From positions 1-64,000 of the forward strand of contig CAIVMQ010000001.1 in NCBI GenBank assembly GCA_903907075.1: a stretch of 64,000 bases of DNA. The letters are read 5' to 3'. Within the stretch, counting starts at the first letter, position 1; every line of letters begins with the position of its first letter. This DNA comes from an uncultured Bacteroidia bacterium (GTDB lineage Bacteria; Bacteroidota; Bacteroidia; Bacteroidales; Prolixibacteraceae). The position numbers and the translations under genes are program-made. Below are positions 1,209-36,450 of the stretch, piece by piece. The notes below the pieces were generated by a model that saw only the letters and a list, made by a program, of their open reading frames with translations, was not told the DNA's origin and made no database searches.

Positions 1209-2216
1209 TTAGTTAGGCATTATCTTAAGAATTTTTTCTGCAAAGACATAGGTAGAATTCGCCACCTGAGCAACACTTTTAGAGGTTAGACTGCAGGCAA
1301 TAACATGAGAATTGGCCTCTGGGAAGGCTTGTTTACATTTCATCGAATCAGGAGTTCCGATCTTTTGAAACATCTCTAATTCTGTTGCCACATCAACAAT
1401 CTGATCCTGTTTATCTTCATCTTTATAGTAATATCCCATAAAAAGAGGACATTTAACTTTGGAGAAAAGATTATCATTCATTGTTGCTTCCAGGAACTGC
1501 TGAAGATAAACAGGACCTTCTGCGCGATAACTGCAGTACCAATATTTACATATTTCGCCTGATGGGTCATCATCCAAAACACGAAAATCACCGCCGAAAT
1601 TTAACCTTGCAATCTGCAAACCCCAAGGTTTGGCTAATAAAACAGCGGATTTTTGTTTAATGGAAATATTTGGTGCATAGAGAATTAAACCATAAACCAG
1701 ATCTGGAAAATCAGCAGCCAATTTAAGAGCTAATGTTCCTCCTGTTGATGTACCCATAATTATTACCTTTTGTCCTAAATGCCTTGCTATAACAAGTGCT
1801 AATTTAGCAGAATCATAAAGCCTATCGGGAGTCATATCGATAAGCGGATTATCAGTTATCAACCCATGCGAAGCGAGCCTAGCCATATACGCATTACATT
1901 TATACCGTTTTGCAAAATCCTCGTTAACTGGAAATCCCTCTTGTCTGCAAGCTGAAAAACCATGTAAGTAAAGAAGTACGAATTCAGTCTTATTCTGAAG
2001 ATTATTGTTGGCCCAAATAATTTTAGCTTCATTATTGGCTTTTATTTTCTCTGTCGATTCTAGCTGACAAACAAACTCATTTACAGGGATATTAAAACTT
2101 GGAAGAATTGAATCTAATACAGGATCTGGCATCACTTGACCCAGGCTATAGGCCACAATAAGAAAAAGTAAACCAATTATACCTGTTTTAAATATTCGTA
2201 TTGAAAGAAAGTTCAT
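1209..2216 (-). CDS. Alpha/beta hydrolase (esterase/lipase-like), membrane-anchored or exported
   Basis: A 335-residue alpha/beta-hydrolase fold protein. The N-terminus carries one hydrophobic segment (about residues 8-27, IIGLLFLIVAYSLGQ), either a signal anchor or an uncleaved signal. The oxyanion-type motif LYLHGFSACRQE and the nucleophile elbow G-T-S-T-G-G (Ser in the middle) are present, and a C-terminal SHV histidine fits the catalytic triad. The substrate is unknown; the family includes carboxylesterases and monoacylglycerol-lipase-like enzymes. The ATG at 2214-2216 lies one base after the TAA of the upstream PPDK-N gene, so the two are almost certainly co-transcribed; an upstream in-frame TTG would overlap and is less likely. 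Confidence 0.82.
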   Translation of the reverse strand: MNFLSIRIFKTGIIGLLFLIVAYSLGQVMPDPVLDSILPSFNIPVNEFVCQLESTEKIKANNEAKIIWANNNLQNKTEFVLLYLHGFSACRQEGFPVNEDFAKRYKCNAYMARLASHGLITDNPLIDMTPDRLYDSAKLALVIARHLGQKVIIMGTSTGGTLALKLAADFPDLVYGLILYAPNISIKQKSAVLLAKPWGLQIARLNFGGDFRVLDDDPSGEICKYWYCSYRAEGPVYLQQFLEATMNDNLFSKVKCPLFMGYYYKDEDKQDQIVDVATELEMFQKIGTPDSMKCKQAFPEANSHVIACSLTSKSVAQVANSTYVFAEKILKIMPN

Positions 2217-2217
2217 A

Positions 2218-5199
2218 TTACTCAATTATGATAATGGCTGTTTGTTTTCTGCCATCCATAAGAATTTCCAAGGATTGTTTAAATCTGACATGCCTAACAT
2301 AAGTACCTTGATAAACTACTTCCTGATGGTAAAGCAATTCAAACTTAATAAAATCGACCGAATGAGTTGTGGGGATAGAGAAATAGCCAACATTATTAGA
2401 GGTGACATTATGGAAAAAATGAGAGCCCAATGAGGCTTCCAGAGGATAATCGGGCAAGCCAATTTCTACAATTACCTTCGCATTATTAATTTGTCCCCAT
2501 TTTACAGGAATACCTGTAAACGGATCACGGGTACCCCATCGCCCGGGTCCAATAAGGATAAACTGTCTGTTTTGCTCCCCTAAATGACTATTAACCTCCG
2601 CAACTTCCTTGGCTATGGCTTCAGTTTTAGTTTTATCAAATTTTTTAATATCTACATATACGACATCTGATATTCCTGTAATCCGTCCGTTACCCATCCC
2701 TTTTGTTGACAAAAGAAGGAGTTTAGAAGGATCGGAAAGATCAAGATTAATAGTAACTTCATCCACCCTGCGAATCAACGGCTTTAGTTGAAGAAGATAA
2801 AAAGTTGGCCAATTGTTTTCACTTTTTGTCAAGTCTAGAGCGAATTCGAGTTCAACAGGAGAGCCCATAGCTTGTTTAAAGAGTTTCATTAAAAGTATTA
2901 ACGATGAGGCCAATGGGATATTTTGATAATCAAGAATATTGGCGAAATTAATTACGAGAGAACCATGTTCTACAATACCTGGAATTAGATTATCATTAAC
3001 CATACTGTAGGTTGAAGCGCAGTTTGCTAAAACACTATCATTTTCAGCTTCACGAATTTTGTATTTTTTCACAGCCCCTAATTCACCCTGCTGAGTAAGT
3101 TCAAAATTACTATCAGCCATGTCTATGGCATAAAATTCCCTTTGAGAATCTCTAATCTGATCGTCAACAGAGCTATTCTTTAGTGCAGGAAATTTGGGGC
3201 AAAACCGCCAGGCCTTTTCTCCTCCAACAACAGCCTGCCCCAATCCCAAGGCAATCACAGCATAACCATCTTCAGGCTCAATGTAAGAAAACGGGTAATA
3301 ATTATATGATTGTGCCACACCACTGATGTCAGGATAGAATTTTTGATTATGATCTTGCCCTACAACAGGTTGGATCACAATCGCCATTTTTTCCTCCTCA
3401 ATTTTATAATTTATTGCATTAAAATAATTCCTAGCCTCATCACTAAAAACAGAGGCATAGACCAATTTTACCGCTGCACGTAATTGTTCGTATCGTACCG
3501 TTTCGTCAGGATGGTTATTCGGTATCAAATAGGTGGCGTAAACACCTGAGAATGGTTGAATCAACGAATCTTCAAATAATCCGGACGAACGTATTGCCAA
3601 TGGTTTATTAACCTGTCGGATATAATCCATTAGCTTATCATTTAATCCACTACTTAATGTTCCTTTTAAAAATAGCTGAGTTAACAGTTTATAATTCGTT
3701 GGAGCATAAGCAAATTCATAGAGGTTATTTGTCTCCATGAAATTATCAAATTCAATAGCGCCAATCACGACAGTGGCCGGCATACGAATATTAATTCCCG
3801 GGATAAGGCTCTTCATATCGATGTTCTCCATTAGATTCGACATAAAAGCTAAGCCTCTCCCCTTTCCGCCTAACGATCCAAGGCCCATTCTTAAAATATA
3901 GCGATTTCCTTCGACCAATGCAGGATCAAAATTTACGATCCTTCCGCGGTTTCTTTTCTCATGAACATCTGCAAAAACGCCTAAACAGATATCCCGAATT
4001 CGTGATGGTTCAACAAAATCATCAATCTTGTAGGGAATCAGCCTTTCTGCCATATTTATTTCTCCCCTTGCCATAAGCCAGGTAGAGAAATCGTTCGATT
4101 TACCATGATATACCAGAGATTCAACAGGAACAGTAGAAATTATCTTTTCAAATTCATGCAGATTGGTAGCTTTGCAGATAACCTCACCCTTTCCATTTCT
4201 AAAAATAAAATCTCCGAATCCTAAATTGCTATTTATAAACTGATTAACATCATGAGAAAGGGTATTCGAATTTTTATTGATAAACTCAGCATTTATCTCT
4301 TTCGCCTGAGTACCATTCGACATATCGTGCGATTGGAGTAAAAAAGGGATTGGATAACGAAGAATTTTTCTCGCATATTTTAGCATTTCTATACCTGCCT
4401 GATCATCCATAGAGCCATTTCGAAGAAACTTAACATCCGAAATAATAGACAACAGATTATCCTTATATTCATTGATCACATCCAAAGCCTCCTCGTATGA
4501 ACTAACTAGTAATACTTTAGGGCGTGCCCGATATTTGAATATTTTATGTAGCTCATCAACAGATTCATCCGAAACCAAAGCTTGAGTTTGAGTCATGACA
4601 CTTGCAAAGAGCAAAGGGAGATATCTGGAATAATATTTTATAGAATCCTCAACGAGCAAAATAATTCTCACCCCCCCTAAACGGGTATCTTTTGCCACAT
4701 TTTTTTTATCCTCAATATATTTAATCATTGCCAAAAACACATTGGAATTTCCATTCCACACAAAAACACGGTCGATAGCAGCTATTTGACTAGCTGCAAG
4801 TTTAAAATAAGTAACATCACTGTTATTGTTTACAAGCAAAAGAATTGGAATCCGCGGTTTTAAGGCATAAATCTCTTCAACAACTTTAAGAGGCATCTCT
4901 TTATCAACACCAGCCATAACAATAGCTAGATCAAAATGCCGAATATTAAGCATCTTATTTACATCTTCTTCTGTATTTACACTTGTAAAACGAGGTGCAG
5001 CATAAAGATTTAACTGTAGATATTCTCCAAAAATCTTATCCGAGAATTGTCCTTCGCGTTCAATCGTATAGGAATCGTAGAGAGTAGCAAAGAGTAAAAC
5101 CTCCTTAACTTTATTGGGCATGAGTTCCTGAAAGATATCCCGATCACTTTTTCGCCGCTTGTAAATAGCTGATATTGATATATTTTCAAATTTTTCCAT
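2218..5199 (-). CDS. Receiver-like / PEP synthase-type ATP-binding (PPDK-N) fusion protein
   Basis: A 993-residue soluble protein. Residues about 33-165 form a degenerate receiver-like fold. Residues about 177-320 form a more complete receiver: the acidic pair in LVED (182-185), candidate phospho-Asp D255 in SIISD, and K309. From about 435 onward comes the ATP-grasp nucleotide-binding domain of pyruvate phosphate dikinase/PEP synthase, with LGGKGRGL (443-450), AIRSS (535-539), E543-D544 and a later IQPVVG strand. The phosphohistidine swivel domain and the PEP/pyruvate TIM barrel of true PEP synthase are absent, so it should not make PEP by itself. Homologues of this layout are annotated in Bacteroidota as PEP/pyruvate-binding proteins. 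It precedes the hydrolase by one base and follows korB by 48 bases. The function is unknown; an ATP-dependent phosphotransfer role controlled by the receivers is inference. Confidence 0.82.
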   Translation of the reverse strand: MEKFENISISAIYKRRKSDRDIFQELMPNKVKEVLLFATLYDSYTIEREGQFSDKIFGEYLQLNLYAAPRFTSVNTEEDVNKMLNIRHFDLAIVMAGVDKEMPLKVVEEIYALKPRIPILLLVNNNSDVTYFKLAASQIAAIDRVFVWNGNSNVFLAMIKYIEDKKNVAKDTRLGGVRIILLVEDSIKYYSRYLPLLFASVMTQTQALVSDESVDELHKIFKYRARPKVLLVSSYEEALDVINEYKDNLLSIISDVKFLRNGSMDDQAGIEMLKYARKILRYPIPFLLQSHDMSNGTQAKEINAEFINKNSNTLSHDVNQFINSNLGFGDFIFRNGKGEVICKATNLHEFEKIISTVPVESLVYHGKSNDFSTWLMARGEINMAERLIPYKIDDFVEPSRIRDICLGVFADVHEKRNRGRIVNFDPALVEGNRYILRMGLGSLGGKGRGLAFMSNLMENIDMKSLIPGINIRMPATVVIGAIEFDNFMETNNLYEFAYAPTNYKLLTQLFLKGTLSSGLNDKLMDYIRQVNKPLAIRSSGLFEDSLIQPFSGVYATYLIPNNHPDETVRYEQLRAAVKLVYASVFSDEARNYFNAINYKIEEEKMAIVIQPVVGQDHNQKFYPDISGVAQSYNYYPFSYIEPEDGYAVIALGLGQAVVGGEKAWRFCPKFPALKNSSVDDQIRDSQREFYAIDMADSNFELTQQGELGAVKKYKIREAENDSVLANCASTYSMVNDNLIPGIVEHGSLVINFANILDYQNIPLASSLILLMKLFKQAMGSPVELEFALDLTKSENNWPTFYLLQLKPLIRRVDEVTINLDLSDPSKLLLLSTKGMGNGRITGISDVVYVDIKKFDKTKTEAIAKEVAEVNSHLGEQNRQFILIGPGRWGTRDPFTGIPVKWGQINNAKVIVEIGLPDYPLEASLGSHFFHNVTSNNVGYFSIPTTHSVDFIKFELLYHQEVVYQGTYVRHVRFKQSLEILMDGRKQTAIIIIE

Positions 5200-23242: not shown

Positions 23243-24076
23243 TTATTTCTCATCTAGGGTAAATAAAACCCGATTCATCTTCCCGGAGACTATGCCCTCT
23301 GGATCTATTTCTATATTGTCAAAGCCTATCATTTTCATTTCGATACGAATTGACTCTTGAGAAGCGCGAAGTTTATCTATATCTTCTTGTTGAACTTCAA
23401 TCTTAGCTATACTTCCATAATGCCGTACACGAACATCTTCAAAACCAAAGGTATTAAGTAAATCTTCAGCAGCTTCAATCTGCCGAAGTTTATCAAAGGT
23501 TACCTCTTGATGGTAAGGGATACGAGAACTCAAACATGGGCTTGCTGGTTTATTCCAATTAGGCAAATTAAAGAACTGGGCTATTGAGCGGATATCAGCT
23601 TTTGAGAAGTTGCAGTCAGCCAATGGCGACAGTACACTTTTTTGTTTTGCAGCTTCAAGTCCAGGACGATAATCTCCTAAATCATTCACATTGGTCCCAT
23701 TTAGAATTTCAAATCCAGGATATTCAGTTTTAAGAGATTGAAGGTCATTATAGAGATGATCTTTGCAAAAGAAACAACGATTTATTGGATTCTGACTATA
23801 ACGGATATCGCTCAGTTCGTTCGTCTTTATCACATGAAGGTTGATATCAAAAGTCGCGCAAAATGATTGAGCAATCAGAAAATCTTTATTCTTCAGACTT
23901 TCGGAATTGGATATTACTCCCACAACAGCTGAACGGCCCTGGTACTTACGAGCCAAAAATAGGACTAAAGAGGAATCAATTCCCCCAGAGAAAGCGACAA
24001 TCGAACCTGTTCTTTGATTAAACCACGATTCAATATTTTTAAGTTTTTCAGTTAACGAAGCGTTCAGTTCGTTCAT
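23243..24076 (-). CDS. larE: Sulfur transferase LarE (three-cysteine type)
   Basis: A 277-residue PP-loop enzyme that converts the two carboxylates of the pincer precursor into thiocarboxylates. The ATP loop is S-G-G-I-D-S-S (30-36). C181 in ASPCLSSRIPY matches the sacrificial Cys176 of the L. plantarum enzyme. C101 and C104 form C-F-F-C; LarE proteins with this extra pair plus the third Cys are known to carry a 4Fe-4S cluster and work catalytically instead of destroying themselves. It is the first gene of larECB; its 342-base divergent upstream gap probably holds the operon promoter. Confidence 0.92.
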   Translation of the reverse strand: MNELNASLTEKLKNIESWFNQRTGSIVAFSGGIDSSLVLFLARKYQGRSAVVGVISNSESLKNKDFLIAQSFCATFDINLHVIKTNELSDIRYSQNPINRCFFCKDHLYNDLQSLKTEYPGFEILNGTNVNDLGDYRPGLEAAKQKSVLSPLADCNFSKADIRSIAQFFNLPNWNKPASPCLSSRIPYHQEVTFDKLRQIEAAEDLLNTFGFEDVRVRHYGSIAKIEVQQEDIDKLRASQESIRIEMKMIGFDNIEIDPEGIVSGKMNRVLFTLDEK

Positions 24077-24418
24077 CTGTATTAAATTATTTTTTTATAT
24101 TTTCGATCTAAAATCATCACCTAATTTTATAGAACCACCTAAGGAGTAGATTAAAAATAAAAAAAGCTAATGTTGTGTAAAGCTATAAATTATTAGTGAA
24201 GAAAAACCGTGGCTGAAAATAATACCTTAATTGCTATAAGCTTCTAAACAAACGAACAAATTAGATTAAAACGAAAAGGTTAAAAAAACTTATCCTTTTT
24301 AGAATAATTCTGATTAACCATCTTTCGACTATTCCCCCCACTGAATTATAAATAAATATAGATACTTTTGTTTCATAACACGTAAAAAACGTATCAATAA
24401 CTCTAAAGTAAAAAAGTT
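24077..24418. other. 342-base divergent promoter region (larE / OB-fold lipoprotein)
   Basis: No gene seen on either strand. AT-rich. It contains a short hairpin (AAAAGG and CCTTTT near 24280-24300) and a -7-like box for the plus-strand gene at 24363. Both divergent genes must be started from here. Confidence 0.6.
24363..24370 (+). promoter_or_regulatory. Possible -7 promoter element of the OB-fold lipoprotein gene
   Basis: TACTTTTG fits TAnnTTTG and lies 48 bases before the ATG. A matching -33 TTTG at 19-21 bases is not clear. Confidence 0.35.
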
Positions 24419-34681: not shown

Positions 34682-35344
34682 TTAATAAAGCTCAAAATCC
34701 AACCCAAATTTTGATTTTAAAGGGGCAAGATCGGGATATCTGCTCACCAGAAGATTCCACTTCTCCTCATCGGTATATGGTATTTCAGAAAGATGACCCG
34801 TGCCATCCGATATCGTGAAGTGAATTTCAATCGAATCATTCTGAAGCTTCCGTCTTAAAAAACTCACTAATTTAGGTTTAACATCTGAGGTAAACCGATT
34901 AAATTGAAGTTCAGTATCGAGTTCAAATTCAAGTTGACTATTTTCAACGATTATTGGTTCACGGGCCGTTAGTGCCGACTTTAATTGTGGAATTTCCAGA
35001 ACTTCGACAAAATTCATCCACGCTTCCAAGAGTTCAGTCTGATTAAATATTCGGGCGCTCTCTTTAGGAACCAAATTATTCAGATCAGATTCTGAAATGA
35101 TATTTAAACTTGCTGCAGTAGGCTCATCTTTTAATGCATCTAAGATAGAAGGGGTTGAATATGATCCTCTACTCGTGTATTTAGGTGGTATTGGTTTTGA
35201 AACTGAAGCTTCCTGAGCCTCTGGCTTAGAGGGTTTAATTACAGGAGAAGTGATTTGCGAAACTACTTGAACTATTTGTTTATCAGGATCTATCAGAGAA
35301 AAAATTGGCAATAACGAGAGTGTCGCTATGGCGTCGTCAATTGT
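34682..35344 (-). CDS. dnaX: DnaX tau-specific C-terminal part, reached by -1 shift
   Basis: A 220-residue continuation of dnaX in the -1 frame. It is normal Bacteroidota DnaX C-terminal sequence: a Pro/Ser/Lys-rich linker, then the folded domain with E-L-L-E-A-W-M-N-F, E-F-E-L-D-T-E-L-Q and SFLRRKLQND. It has no usable start of its own: the frame is open up to the A-run, the first in-frame start-like codon is a TTG, and the first ATG comes about 107 codons in, inside the domain. It should therefore be made only as part of tau (about 589 residues) by slippage at 35344-35353. Confidence 0.8.
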   Translation of the reverse strand, partial: TIDDAIATLSLLPIFSLIDPDKQIVQVVSQITSPVIKPSKPEAQEASVSKPIPPKYTSRGSYSTPSILDALKDEPTAASLNIISESDLNNLVPKESARIFNQTELLEAWMNFVEVLEIPQLKSALTAREPIIVENSQLEFELDTELQFNRFTSDVKPKLVSFLRRKLQNDSIEIHFTISDGTGHLSEIPYTDEEKWNLLVSRYPDLAPLKSKFGLDFELY

Positions 35345-36450
35345 TTTTTTTTTAATAATTCGTCCAACTGATCAATTCGCACGAGGGTCAATTCTACTAA
35401 AAAACGTTGATTTGATGAGGATTTATATTGGATATCACATTCAGAAGCTAATTGCAGAGCACCAATCAGAAAATTAATCGAGCATAATTCAGCTTGCTTC
35501 TTATACTTTTCCCGAATCTCGCCACCCACCTCGAGAAGTTGAACCGTTACAGAATCCTTACAAATTAGCAAATCACGAAAATGCTGACCTAAGCCCATAA
35601 TAAAATGGTGAGCATTAAAGCCCTTATCCAATATCTCACTAAAGATCATTAAGGTTGCAGGAATATCACCTGCCTTAAAACAATCGGTCAGATTAAAATA
35701 GTAATCGTAATCGAGCACATTTAGATTAGCAATAGTATCTTTATAGGTAACATTTGATCCGCAGAAACTAACAACCTGATCAAAAATAGACAATGCATCA
35801 CGCATTGCACCGTCCGCTTTTTGCGCTATTACATTTAACGCTTCCGGCTCAACATTTATTTGTTCCTTTTGGGCGACCTCACGGAGATATTTTTCGATAT
35901 CCGGAATCGCGATCCTGTTAAAATCATAGATCTGACAACGGGATAAGATAGTGGGTAAGATTTTATGCTTCTCGGTGGTAGCTAGAATAAATACAGCATG
36001 AGCAGGAGGCTCTTCCAAGGTCTTTAAAAAAGCATTAAATGCCGCTTGAGAGAGCATATGAACCTCATCGATAATATAAACACTATATCTGCCAATCTGA
36101 GGAGGTATTCGAACCTTATCAACCAATGAACGGATATCGTCAACCGAATTATTCGAAGCAGCATCCAGTTCATGAATATTATAAGATCTGTTTTCGGCAA
36201 ACGACTGGCACGACTCGCAGCTATTGCAAGGTTCAGTATTGCTATCTAGGCTTAAACAGTTAATGGTTTTGGCAAAAATACGTGCAGAGGTGGTCTTCCC
36301 AACCCCACGAGGTCCACAAAAAAGATAGGCATGAGCAAGATGATTACTTCGAATTGCATTTTTCAATGTCGAAGTAATCGAAGGCTGACCCACAACAGAG
36401 TTGAAAGTGTCAGGACGATATTTCCTTGCTGAAACCAGGTAGTTTTCCAT
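35326..36450 (-). CDS. dnaX: DNA polymerase III gamma subunit (dnaX zero frame)
   Basis: A 374-residue clamp-loader ATPase. The Walker A is GPRGVGKTTSARIFAK, a four-Cys zinc module runs from NCLSLDSNTEPCNSCESC, the Walker B/DEAH-like box is YIIDEVHMLS and the sensor-1/SRC region reads LPTILSRCQIYDF. In the zero frame it ends nine codons after the A-run begins (L-K-K-K-Q-L-T-T-P-stop), giving a short gamma-like form; a -1 shift gives full tau. The gene converges on nothing here and starts divergently from glutathione peroxidase. Confidence 0.95.
   Translation of the reverse strand: MENYLVSARKYRPDTFNSVVGQPSITSTLKNAIRSNHLAHAYLFCGPRGVGKTTSARIFAKTINCLSLDSNTEPCNSCESCQSFAENRSYNIHELDAASNNSVDDIRSLVDKVRIPPQIGRYSVYIIDEVHMLSQAAFNAFLKTLEEPPAHAVFILATTEKHKILPTILSRCQIYDFNRIAIPDIEKYLREVAQKEQINVEPEALNVIAQKADGAMRDALSIFDQVVSFCGSNVTYKDTIANLNVLDYDYYFNLTDCFKAGDIPATLMIFSEILDKGFNAHHFIMGLGQHFRDLLICKDSVTVQLLEVGGEIREKYKKQAELCSINFLIGALQLASECDIQYKSSSNQRFLVELTLVRIDQLDELLKKKQLTTP
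35344..35353 (-). promoter_or_regulatory. Slippery run of ten A in dnaX (recoding site)
   Basis: The coding strand reads TTA AAA AAA AAA CAA with ten consecutive A. Shifting back one base at A-AAA-AAA joins the gamma frame to the tau frame. A weak, bulged stem (ACGACGC with GCG and TCGT) begins six bases downstream. E. coli dnaX uses A-AAA-AAG with ribosomal shifting; Thermus dnaX uses nine A with transcriptional slippage, so a run of ten fits either. Confidence 0.7.

Follow-up and report, generated by a model that had tools for sequence, protein, structure and literature searches.

A poly-A run at the gamma/tau border of dnaX as a candidate frame-indifferent transcript-slippage switch in Bacteroidia

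Results and Discussion

What is conserved at the gamma/tau border of dnaX in the loci compared here is a homopolymer of A together with nearby stops in both non-tau frames, and not the reading frame. The gene from which the comparison starts lies in the window (the whole stretch of 64,000 nt of DNA that was analyzed, from an uncultured Bacteroidia bacterium), where dnaX is split at a run of ten A. We consider it probable (about three chances in four) that this run acts as a frame-indifferent transcript-slippage switch through which both gamma and tau are made. RNA polymerase would slip on the ten A to give dnaX mRNAs with differing numbers of A, of which those with ten A would be translated into gamma (374 aa), those with one extra A (or two fewer) would enter the tau frame, yielding 589 aa when one base is added, and the remaining class would run into the immediate third-frame stop and also give a gamma-length protein. 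The anatomy, the conservation of the run, the frame changes, and the paired stops are seen in the sequences, and from there we infer slippage itself, the mix of A-numbers, the gamma:tau ratio, and the usefulness of gamma.

If this reading is true, many Bacteroidia make gamma besides tau by slippage, dnaX genes that resemble truncations or pseudogenes are intact, and dnaX is a rare case of an essential gene with a hardly selected reading frame. Run-bearing and run-less relatives would then form a clean system for asking what purpose gamma serves.

Loci Compared and Their Classification

Once duplicates (L001 and L032) were set aside, we had 268 dnaX loci, comprising 135 fused, 118 split with the tail in the -1 frame, nine split with the tail in the +1 frame, four undetermined, and two at contig ends. 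The last two groups were also left out before counting, leaving a classified set of n = 262. The classification used is centered on the run; a first pass had given 133 fused, 119 split (-1), and 10 split (+1) loci. Overall shares are not a census, since the loci were drawn from similarity lists as well as from draws. The phylum draw contained 104 same-class and same-order genomes, of which 103 were read (all but G226); in the same-order sample it was 21 of 24, the other three having no strong dnaX match. A dnaX match was obtained in all but two (G003 and G010) of the 18 genomes of the same genus, and in 130 of the 140 genomes of the same family, where the DNA was read for 65 loci. Named loci were assigned to Bacteroidia by their GTDB class, and other genomes by the label "same class".

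A Split Gene with Its Tau Tail in the -1 Frame

In the window, dnaX is encoded on the minus strand, with its ATG at 36450 and its zero-frame stop at 35326. This zero-frame ORF (35326..36450) corresponds to gamma (domains I-III, with PF13177, PF22608, and PF12169), comprises 374 aa (42.1 kDa), and matches positions 1-364 of the NCBIfam equivalog PRK14971 (614 positions) with E 7.7e-213. The shift site, a run of ten A in the sense direction, occupies 35344..35353 (minus strand), and the sense sequence at the junction reads ...GAA TTA TTA AAA AAA AAA CAA TTG ACG ACG CCA TAG. Five codons lie between the run and the stop in the zero frame, which is ended by the TAG at 35326..35328 (the gamma stop), and one codon in the third (+1) frame, closed by a TGA at 35337..35339, as against 219 codons in the -1 frame. 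A 374-residue zero frame that stops soon past ten A, as described in an earlier note on this DNA, is thus confirmed from the sequence; the same note placed the stop nine codons past the run, which is correct when counted from the first AAA codon; counted from where the run ends, the stop is the sixth codon.

The -1 frame after the run encodes the tau-specific C-terminal part (34682..35343, minus strand, 219 aa), as judged by its length, its matches to the tails of fused genes, and the codon-position bias in its last part. PRK14971 covers both halves of the split gene: a segment of the -1 frame at 34694..35221 on the minus strand (residues 51-226 of its translation, P0001) matches the C-terminal end of the model (positions 446-613, E 9.6e-16), which bears out the assignment of this frame to the DnaX C-terminal part. 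Against the tails of fused dnaX genes the best E value of the window tail is 7.8e-20, and at E 1e-3 it matches the tails in 85 of the 135 fused, 80 of the 118 split (-1), and 7 of the 9 split (+1) loci. Pfam domain III of DnaX is present in a single place in the whole assembly. Among 16 same-genus loci, the last part of the tail differs by 0.32/0.26/0.58 at codon positions 1/2/3, indicating that the protein encoded by the -1 frame is under selection in this part. The linker directly after the run shows little codon-position bias (0.51/0.44/0.59 in the same number of loci of the genus), which counts against the slippage reading.

The tail is open to 34682, and the ten-A run is its sole access. 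Its only Met (in EAWMNF) sits near the middle of the -1 frame, so the observation that no ATG precedes the middle also stands, and a one-base shift joins both frames into 1770 nt, or 589 aa plus a stop by arithmetic, in accord with the product of about that length that had been predicted. Recoding at the run is required for tau, and gamma plus tau is the natural reading of a split dnaX, as had been proposed and as the frame anatomy upholds. That gamma and the tail are instead two separate proteins, the latter translated by reinitiation or from a separate start, is very unlikely. A TTG does lie in the -1 frame 15 nt after the gamma stop in the window, and ATG, GTG, or TTG is found in the tau frame no more than 20 codons from the run in 38/118 split (-1) loci vs 20/101 fused ones. 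However, this excess is modest, ATG alone accounts for 9/118 and 5/101 loci, respectively, and all three codons are missing from this stretch in 80 of the 118 split (-1) loci.

The Same Run Recurs across the Class and in Fused Genes

A run of at least nine A is present at the gamma/tau border in all 118 split (-1) loci, in 8 of the 9 split (+1) loci, and in 101 of the 135 fused loci, that is, as A9-A13 in 227 of the 262 classified loci. The run lengths extend from 9 to 13 with a mode of 10, and none is of 8; A10 makes up 175 of 264 gamma/tau boundary runs. Runs of at least nine A are found at this boundary in 226 of 264 loci, as against a single such run over the initial 330 codons of 266 loci (262,482 nt). 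Across loci, the run occupies all three codon phases.

The earlier note had suggested looking at the same site in related genomes, and both the run and the -1 split recur there. Each of the 16 same-genus loci that could be read is split (15 at A10 and one at A9), and in the same family 57 of 64 readable loci are split (-1), with four fused and three split (+1) and the run present in 64/64 (the 65th being a contig end); in another genus (g53), 25/25 genomes are split at A10. An error of assembly or sequencing in the homopolymer, or a frameshift mutation that arose there recently, has in its favor that A-runs break other genes of this assembly as well (a GH3/beta-lactamase-domain gene and an alcohol dehydrogenase gene). 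This explanation nevertheless has a negligible probability given these counts, the paired stops described below, and the selection on the -1 frame. With the same split in 16/16 readable same-genus loci and in 118/262 classified loci, the error reading entertained in the note is refuted for the lineage, single-genome A9 and A11 states apart.

In the phylum draw, the run is present in 96 of 103 Bacteroidia genomes (49 fused, 45 split (-1), and 2 split (+1)) and absent in 7, and in the same-order sample 11 of 21 genomes carry it and 10 do not. The named loci number 79, of which 56 were classified as run-bearing (42 fused, 13 split (-1), and 1 split (+1)), 18 are fused and run-less, and 5 are undetermined or at contig ends. 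Among them, genes that have the run but are in one frame come from, for example, Pedobacter, Mucilaginibacter, Hymenobacter, Chitinophaga, and Marinifilum, and genes with a -1 split from, for example, Flavobacterium, Chryseobacterium, Culturomica, and Sunxiuqinia. The last (L033; Prolixibacteraceae) is 73% identical to the window gene, and the window genome probably belongs to Prolixibacteraceae on this basis. The three Bacteroidaceae among the named loci are all without the run. The element is dispensable, as seen from its absence in 7/103 and 10/21 genomes and in 3/3 Bacteroidaceae loci, a point against the slippage reading. A one-frame dnaX is, as the note assumed for Bacteroidota, common. 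However, most of the fused genes read carry the same A-run (101/135), such that the split resembles one of the frame states of a common element and not a separate origin.

Conservation of a lysine tract at the protein level was considered as an explanation for the run and rejected: in the upstream part of these genes, 31% of the Lys codons are AAG, a share that reaches 58.5% in the 19 run-bearing loci with a GC of at least 0.5, and the DNA letters are conserved in spite of this use of AAG; moreover, KKK at residues 335-400 occurs in none of 35 run-less loci.

Outside Bacteroidia, a run of nine was found in 1 of 20 dnaX loci chosen from the phylum's remaining classes. This locus (L284, in G180) is a fused dnaX with nine A near the same border, where the off-frame stops come 3 and 20 codons later. 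In three further loci (L223 in G037, L101, and L088), the zero frame ends close to the gamma/tau border although no A-run is present, which may reflect an assembly error or another mechanism. L088 was counted as fused without the run, L223 is the one +1 locus without it, and L101 is among the undetermined loci; in L088 and L223, the zero-frame stop precedes the point at which the frames were scored.

Frequent Frame Changes and Paired Stops

The frame at the run changes often. A quick maximum-likelihood tree was built from 201 DnaX N-termini, with no more than two rows for each genus and state; it requires at least 27 frame changes among 166 run-bearing tips, compared to 51-64 after shuffling of the labels, so that the states are clustered but frequently exchanged; the 35 run-less tips show one frame change on the same tree. 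Scoring the +1 state against the rest gives 7 changes on this tree. FastTree applied to 287 rows likewise gives 27 changes among the run-bearing rows, along with 18 changes of run presence. Within one genus, loci with similar flanks carry A9, A10, and A11 and are accordingly +1, -1, and fused (L255, L248, and L251; also L256, L027, and L252). Some of the single-genome A9 and A11 tip states could be assembly errors.

The stops, by comparison, stay. A stop follows within 5 codons of the run in the -1 frame of 98/101 and the +1 frame of 86/101 fused run-bearing loci, and in the zero frame of 114/118 and the +1 frame of 104/118 split (-1) loci, against a background of 27-39%, depending on the frame, at random in-gene positions. 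In fused run-less loci, the off-frame stops are at background (11/34 and 7/34). When identical 15-mers following the run are counted a single time, a stop is reached within 10 codons in both non-tau frames of 90/92 split (-1), 91/99 fused, and 7/7 split (+1) cases, compared to 2305/10640 random positions. The third stop would be useless to a ribosomal shift in the -1 direction only and useful to two-way slippage, and the paired stops thus count for slippage.

Slippage would feed all three frames, in which case the chromosomal frame would matter little and would drift while the run and the two stops are kept. We lean, by a small measure, towards the fuller reading that Bacteroidia dnaX is under a polymerase-slippage switch whose genomic frame is near neutral and drifts among three states even within a genus, with slippage that mostly adds A's. 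Few loci are in the +1 state (8 of the 227 that bear the run, and among these eight L142 and L239 are near relatives). Changes of run length treat the three frames alike, and drift should equalize them, so the +1 state is probably selected against. Under slippage, such selection would point to added A's being commoner than lost ones, and, if the near-neutral reading is true, the scarcity of +1 genes indicates that slippage mostly adds A's. We note, however, that the rarity of +1 is also predicted by a ribosomal mechanism that shifts only by -1, and that under slippage it requires the bias to added A's.

Polymerase Slippage Compared to Shifting by the Ribosome

In E. coli, dnaX undergoes a -1 programmed ribosomal frameshift on A_AAA_AAG, with a Shine-Dalgarno element and a strong stem-loop, and gamma is the shifted product. 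The window gene resembles it in being one gene for two clamp-loader subunits. In contrast to E. coli, its run is followed by C and offers only A_AAA_AAA, the strong downstream stem-loop and the upstream Shine-Dalgarno-like stimulator are lacking, and the shifted product is tau. Over the 36 nt after the run, the mean minimum free energy (MFE) is -3.7, compared to -4.0 in control windows and -19.1 for dnaX of E. coli K-12, and an MFE of -10 or below is reached in 12 of 227 run-bearing loci vs 7 controls; over 60 nt, the window gene has -8.1 and E. coli -23.2. The z-scores from shuffling (mean -0.39 after the run and -0.22 in controls, with z < -2 in 28/227 vs 19/227) are uninformative, since the E. 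coli positive control itself scores only -0.53, and the absolute MFE was used instead. Shine-Dalgarno-like 5-mers lie upstream of the run in 7 of 227 run-bearing loci, against a control rate of 3.2%, and by eye none of the 5-mers tested is found upstream of the window run.

Programmed -1 ribosomal frameshifting at A_AAA_AAA, in which tau would come from a uniform mRNA by the E. coli logic with the products reversed, is in our view improbable, though the likeliest of the alternatives. The ten-A run does include this possible -1 heptamer, which counts against slippage, and 118 of the 126 run-bearing split loci are -1; a single direction is, in excerpts of Antonov et al. 2013 (PMC3711429), a general sign of ribosomal shifting, though not for dnaX. 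In addition, E. coli-like potential stimulators are mentioned as unpublished for Chlorobium phaeobacteroides dnaX in the consulted part of the review of Atkins et al. 2016 (PMC5009743). Against this mechanism, all 118 split (-1) loci have at least nine A although 7 nt would be enough, most loci are without a stem-loop or Shine-Dalgarno sequence, the third frame is closed at once as well, and the eight run-bearing +1 loci would get no tau from a single -1 shift.

Two-way sliding of ribosomes on poly(A) that needs no stimulators would account for the missing structure, the paired stops, and the frame indifference, and it is, according to excerpts of the E. coli work, shown on AAA runs, where three AAA lysines are already enough to give a truncated product (PMC4363877). 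In the same excerpts, however, sliding on K3 inserts in vitro is robust at A11 and yields little product at A9 or A10, the latter being the length of 175 of the 264 boundary runs, and we regard this alternative as slightly less probable still than the programmed shift. For polymerase slippage, nine A's suffice in Thermus dnaX, as given in the part of PMC1088944 consulted. In a series of E. coli constructs of another gene, as excerpted from PMC3711429, the shifted product rises from 10% with 7 As to 40% with 9 As and 63% with 11 As, which shows that such runs suffice for shifting, the level of the shift not being told apart there. The floor of at least nine A, the occupation of all codon phases, the lack of E. 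coli-like structure and Shine-Dalgarno sequences in most loci, and these literature thresholds favor slippage of RNA polymerase. Of the two mechanisms that the earlier note had offered, transcript slippage thus fits better, and programmed -1 ribosomal shifting less well.

Relation to Previously Described dnaX Genes

The note's suggestion of a third, separately arisen case does not hold, as two-ORF dnaX genes are described in Antonov et al. 2013 (PMC3711429), the accessible text of which lists 17 genes from 12 genera, all -1, with slippage inferred; nine of them have ten A, and three from Chlorobi have nine, eight, and seven. These genes are like that of the window in having the gamma ORF first, the tau tail in the -1 frame, and tau dependent on a shift, and the window gene likewise has an N-terminal ORF ending at the gamma/tau border, a -1 tail, and a conserved poly-A junction. 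In contrast to this cluster, which in the accessible text is -1 only, the loci compared here include fused and +1 genes that share the run, and have paired stops. The Chlorobi genes with eight and seven A, when set against the floor of nine in our loci, count against the slippage reading.

Thermus thermophilus dnaX (Larsen et al. 2000, via excerpts of PMC1088944, PMC5009743, and PMC3711429) has a nine-A run with stops a short distance away in the remaining frames, and thus shares with the window gene an uninterrupted run of at least nine A and nearby stops in both non-tau frames. Its genome frame is that of tau, as in the 101 fused run-bearing loci, whereas that of the window gene is that of gamma. 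The reversed arrangement, with tau from the shift, is also noted in the consulted part of Atkins et al. 2016 (PMC5009743). In dnaX of the ant endosymbiont Blochmannia, a poly-A frameshift has been proposed to be corrected by slippage (PMC3017870, in excerpt); there, the frameshift lies inside the tau-only region and is a proposed rescue of a mutation, whereas the window run would be a gamma/tau switch. In the open-access literature, judged from listings, we found no report of the run in fused Bacteroidia dnaX or of frame indifference. The two-ORF dnaX with ten A is already known, and the new part is the class-wide, frame-indifferent conservation of the run.

Long A-Runs Elsewhere in the Assembly

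The assembly that contains the window has A10 at 11 distinct sites on both strands (15 overlapping matches), compared to about 45 expected from the base composition of the window alone, which is a crude estimate. Three of these runs lie in the sense direction inside ORFs of at least 100 aa (dnaX, GH3, and alcohol dehydrogenase), and all three are at frame breaks. The GH3 and alcohol dehydrogenase runs were considered as further switches and rejected, as the breaks are not common to most relatives.

The alcohol dehydrogenase gene is broken at its A10 (contig C120 of this assembly, G000, positions 23413-24090; L305), and the one relative found among 20 searched (G010, L307) is open, with 373 aa. 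The GH3/beta-lactamase-domain gene is likewise broken at A10 (contig C103, positions 2031-3548; L303 and L308), and its break is a mutation, an assembly error, or tolerated through slippage. By eye, no A-run was seen in four loci from elsewhere in the family (L325, L326, L327, and L330). In 16 genus mates the GH3 run is A11 in eight, A10 in one, A9 in four, and interrupted in two, and in genus mate G009 (L309) it is A12 with a break. With at least nine A in 15 of 17 loci of the genus, this run indicates that a long A-run can persist within one genus without a switch.
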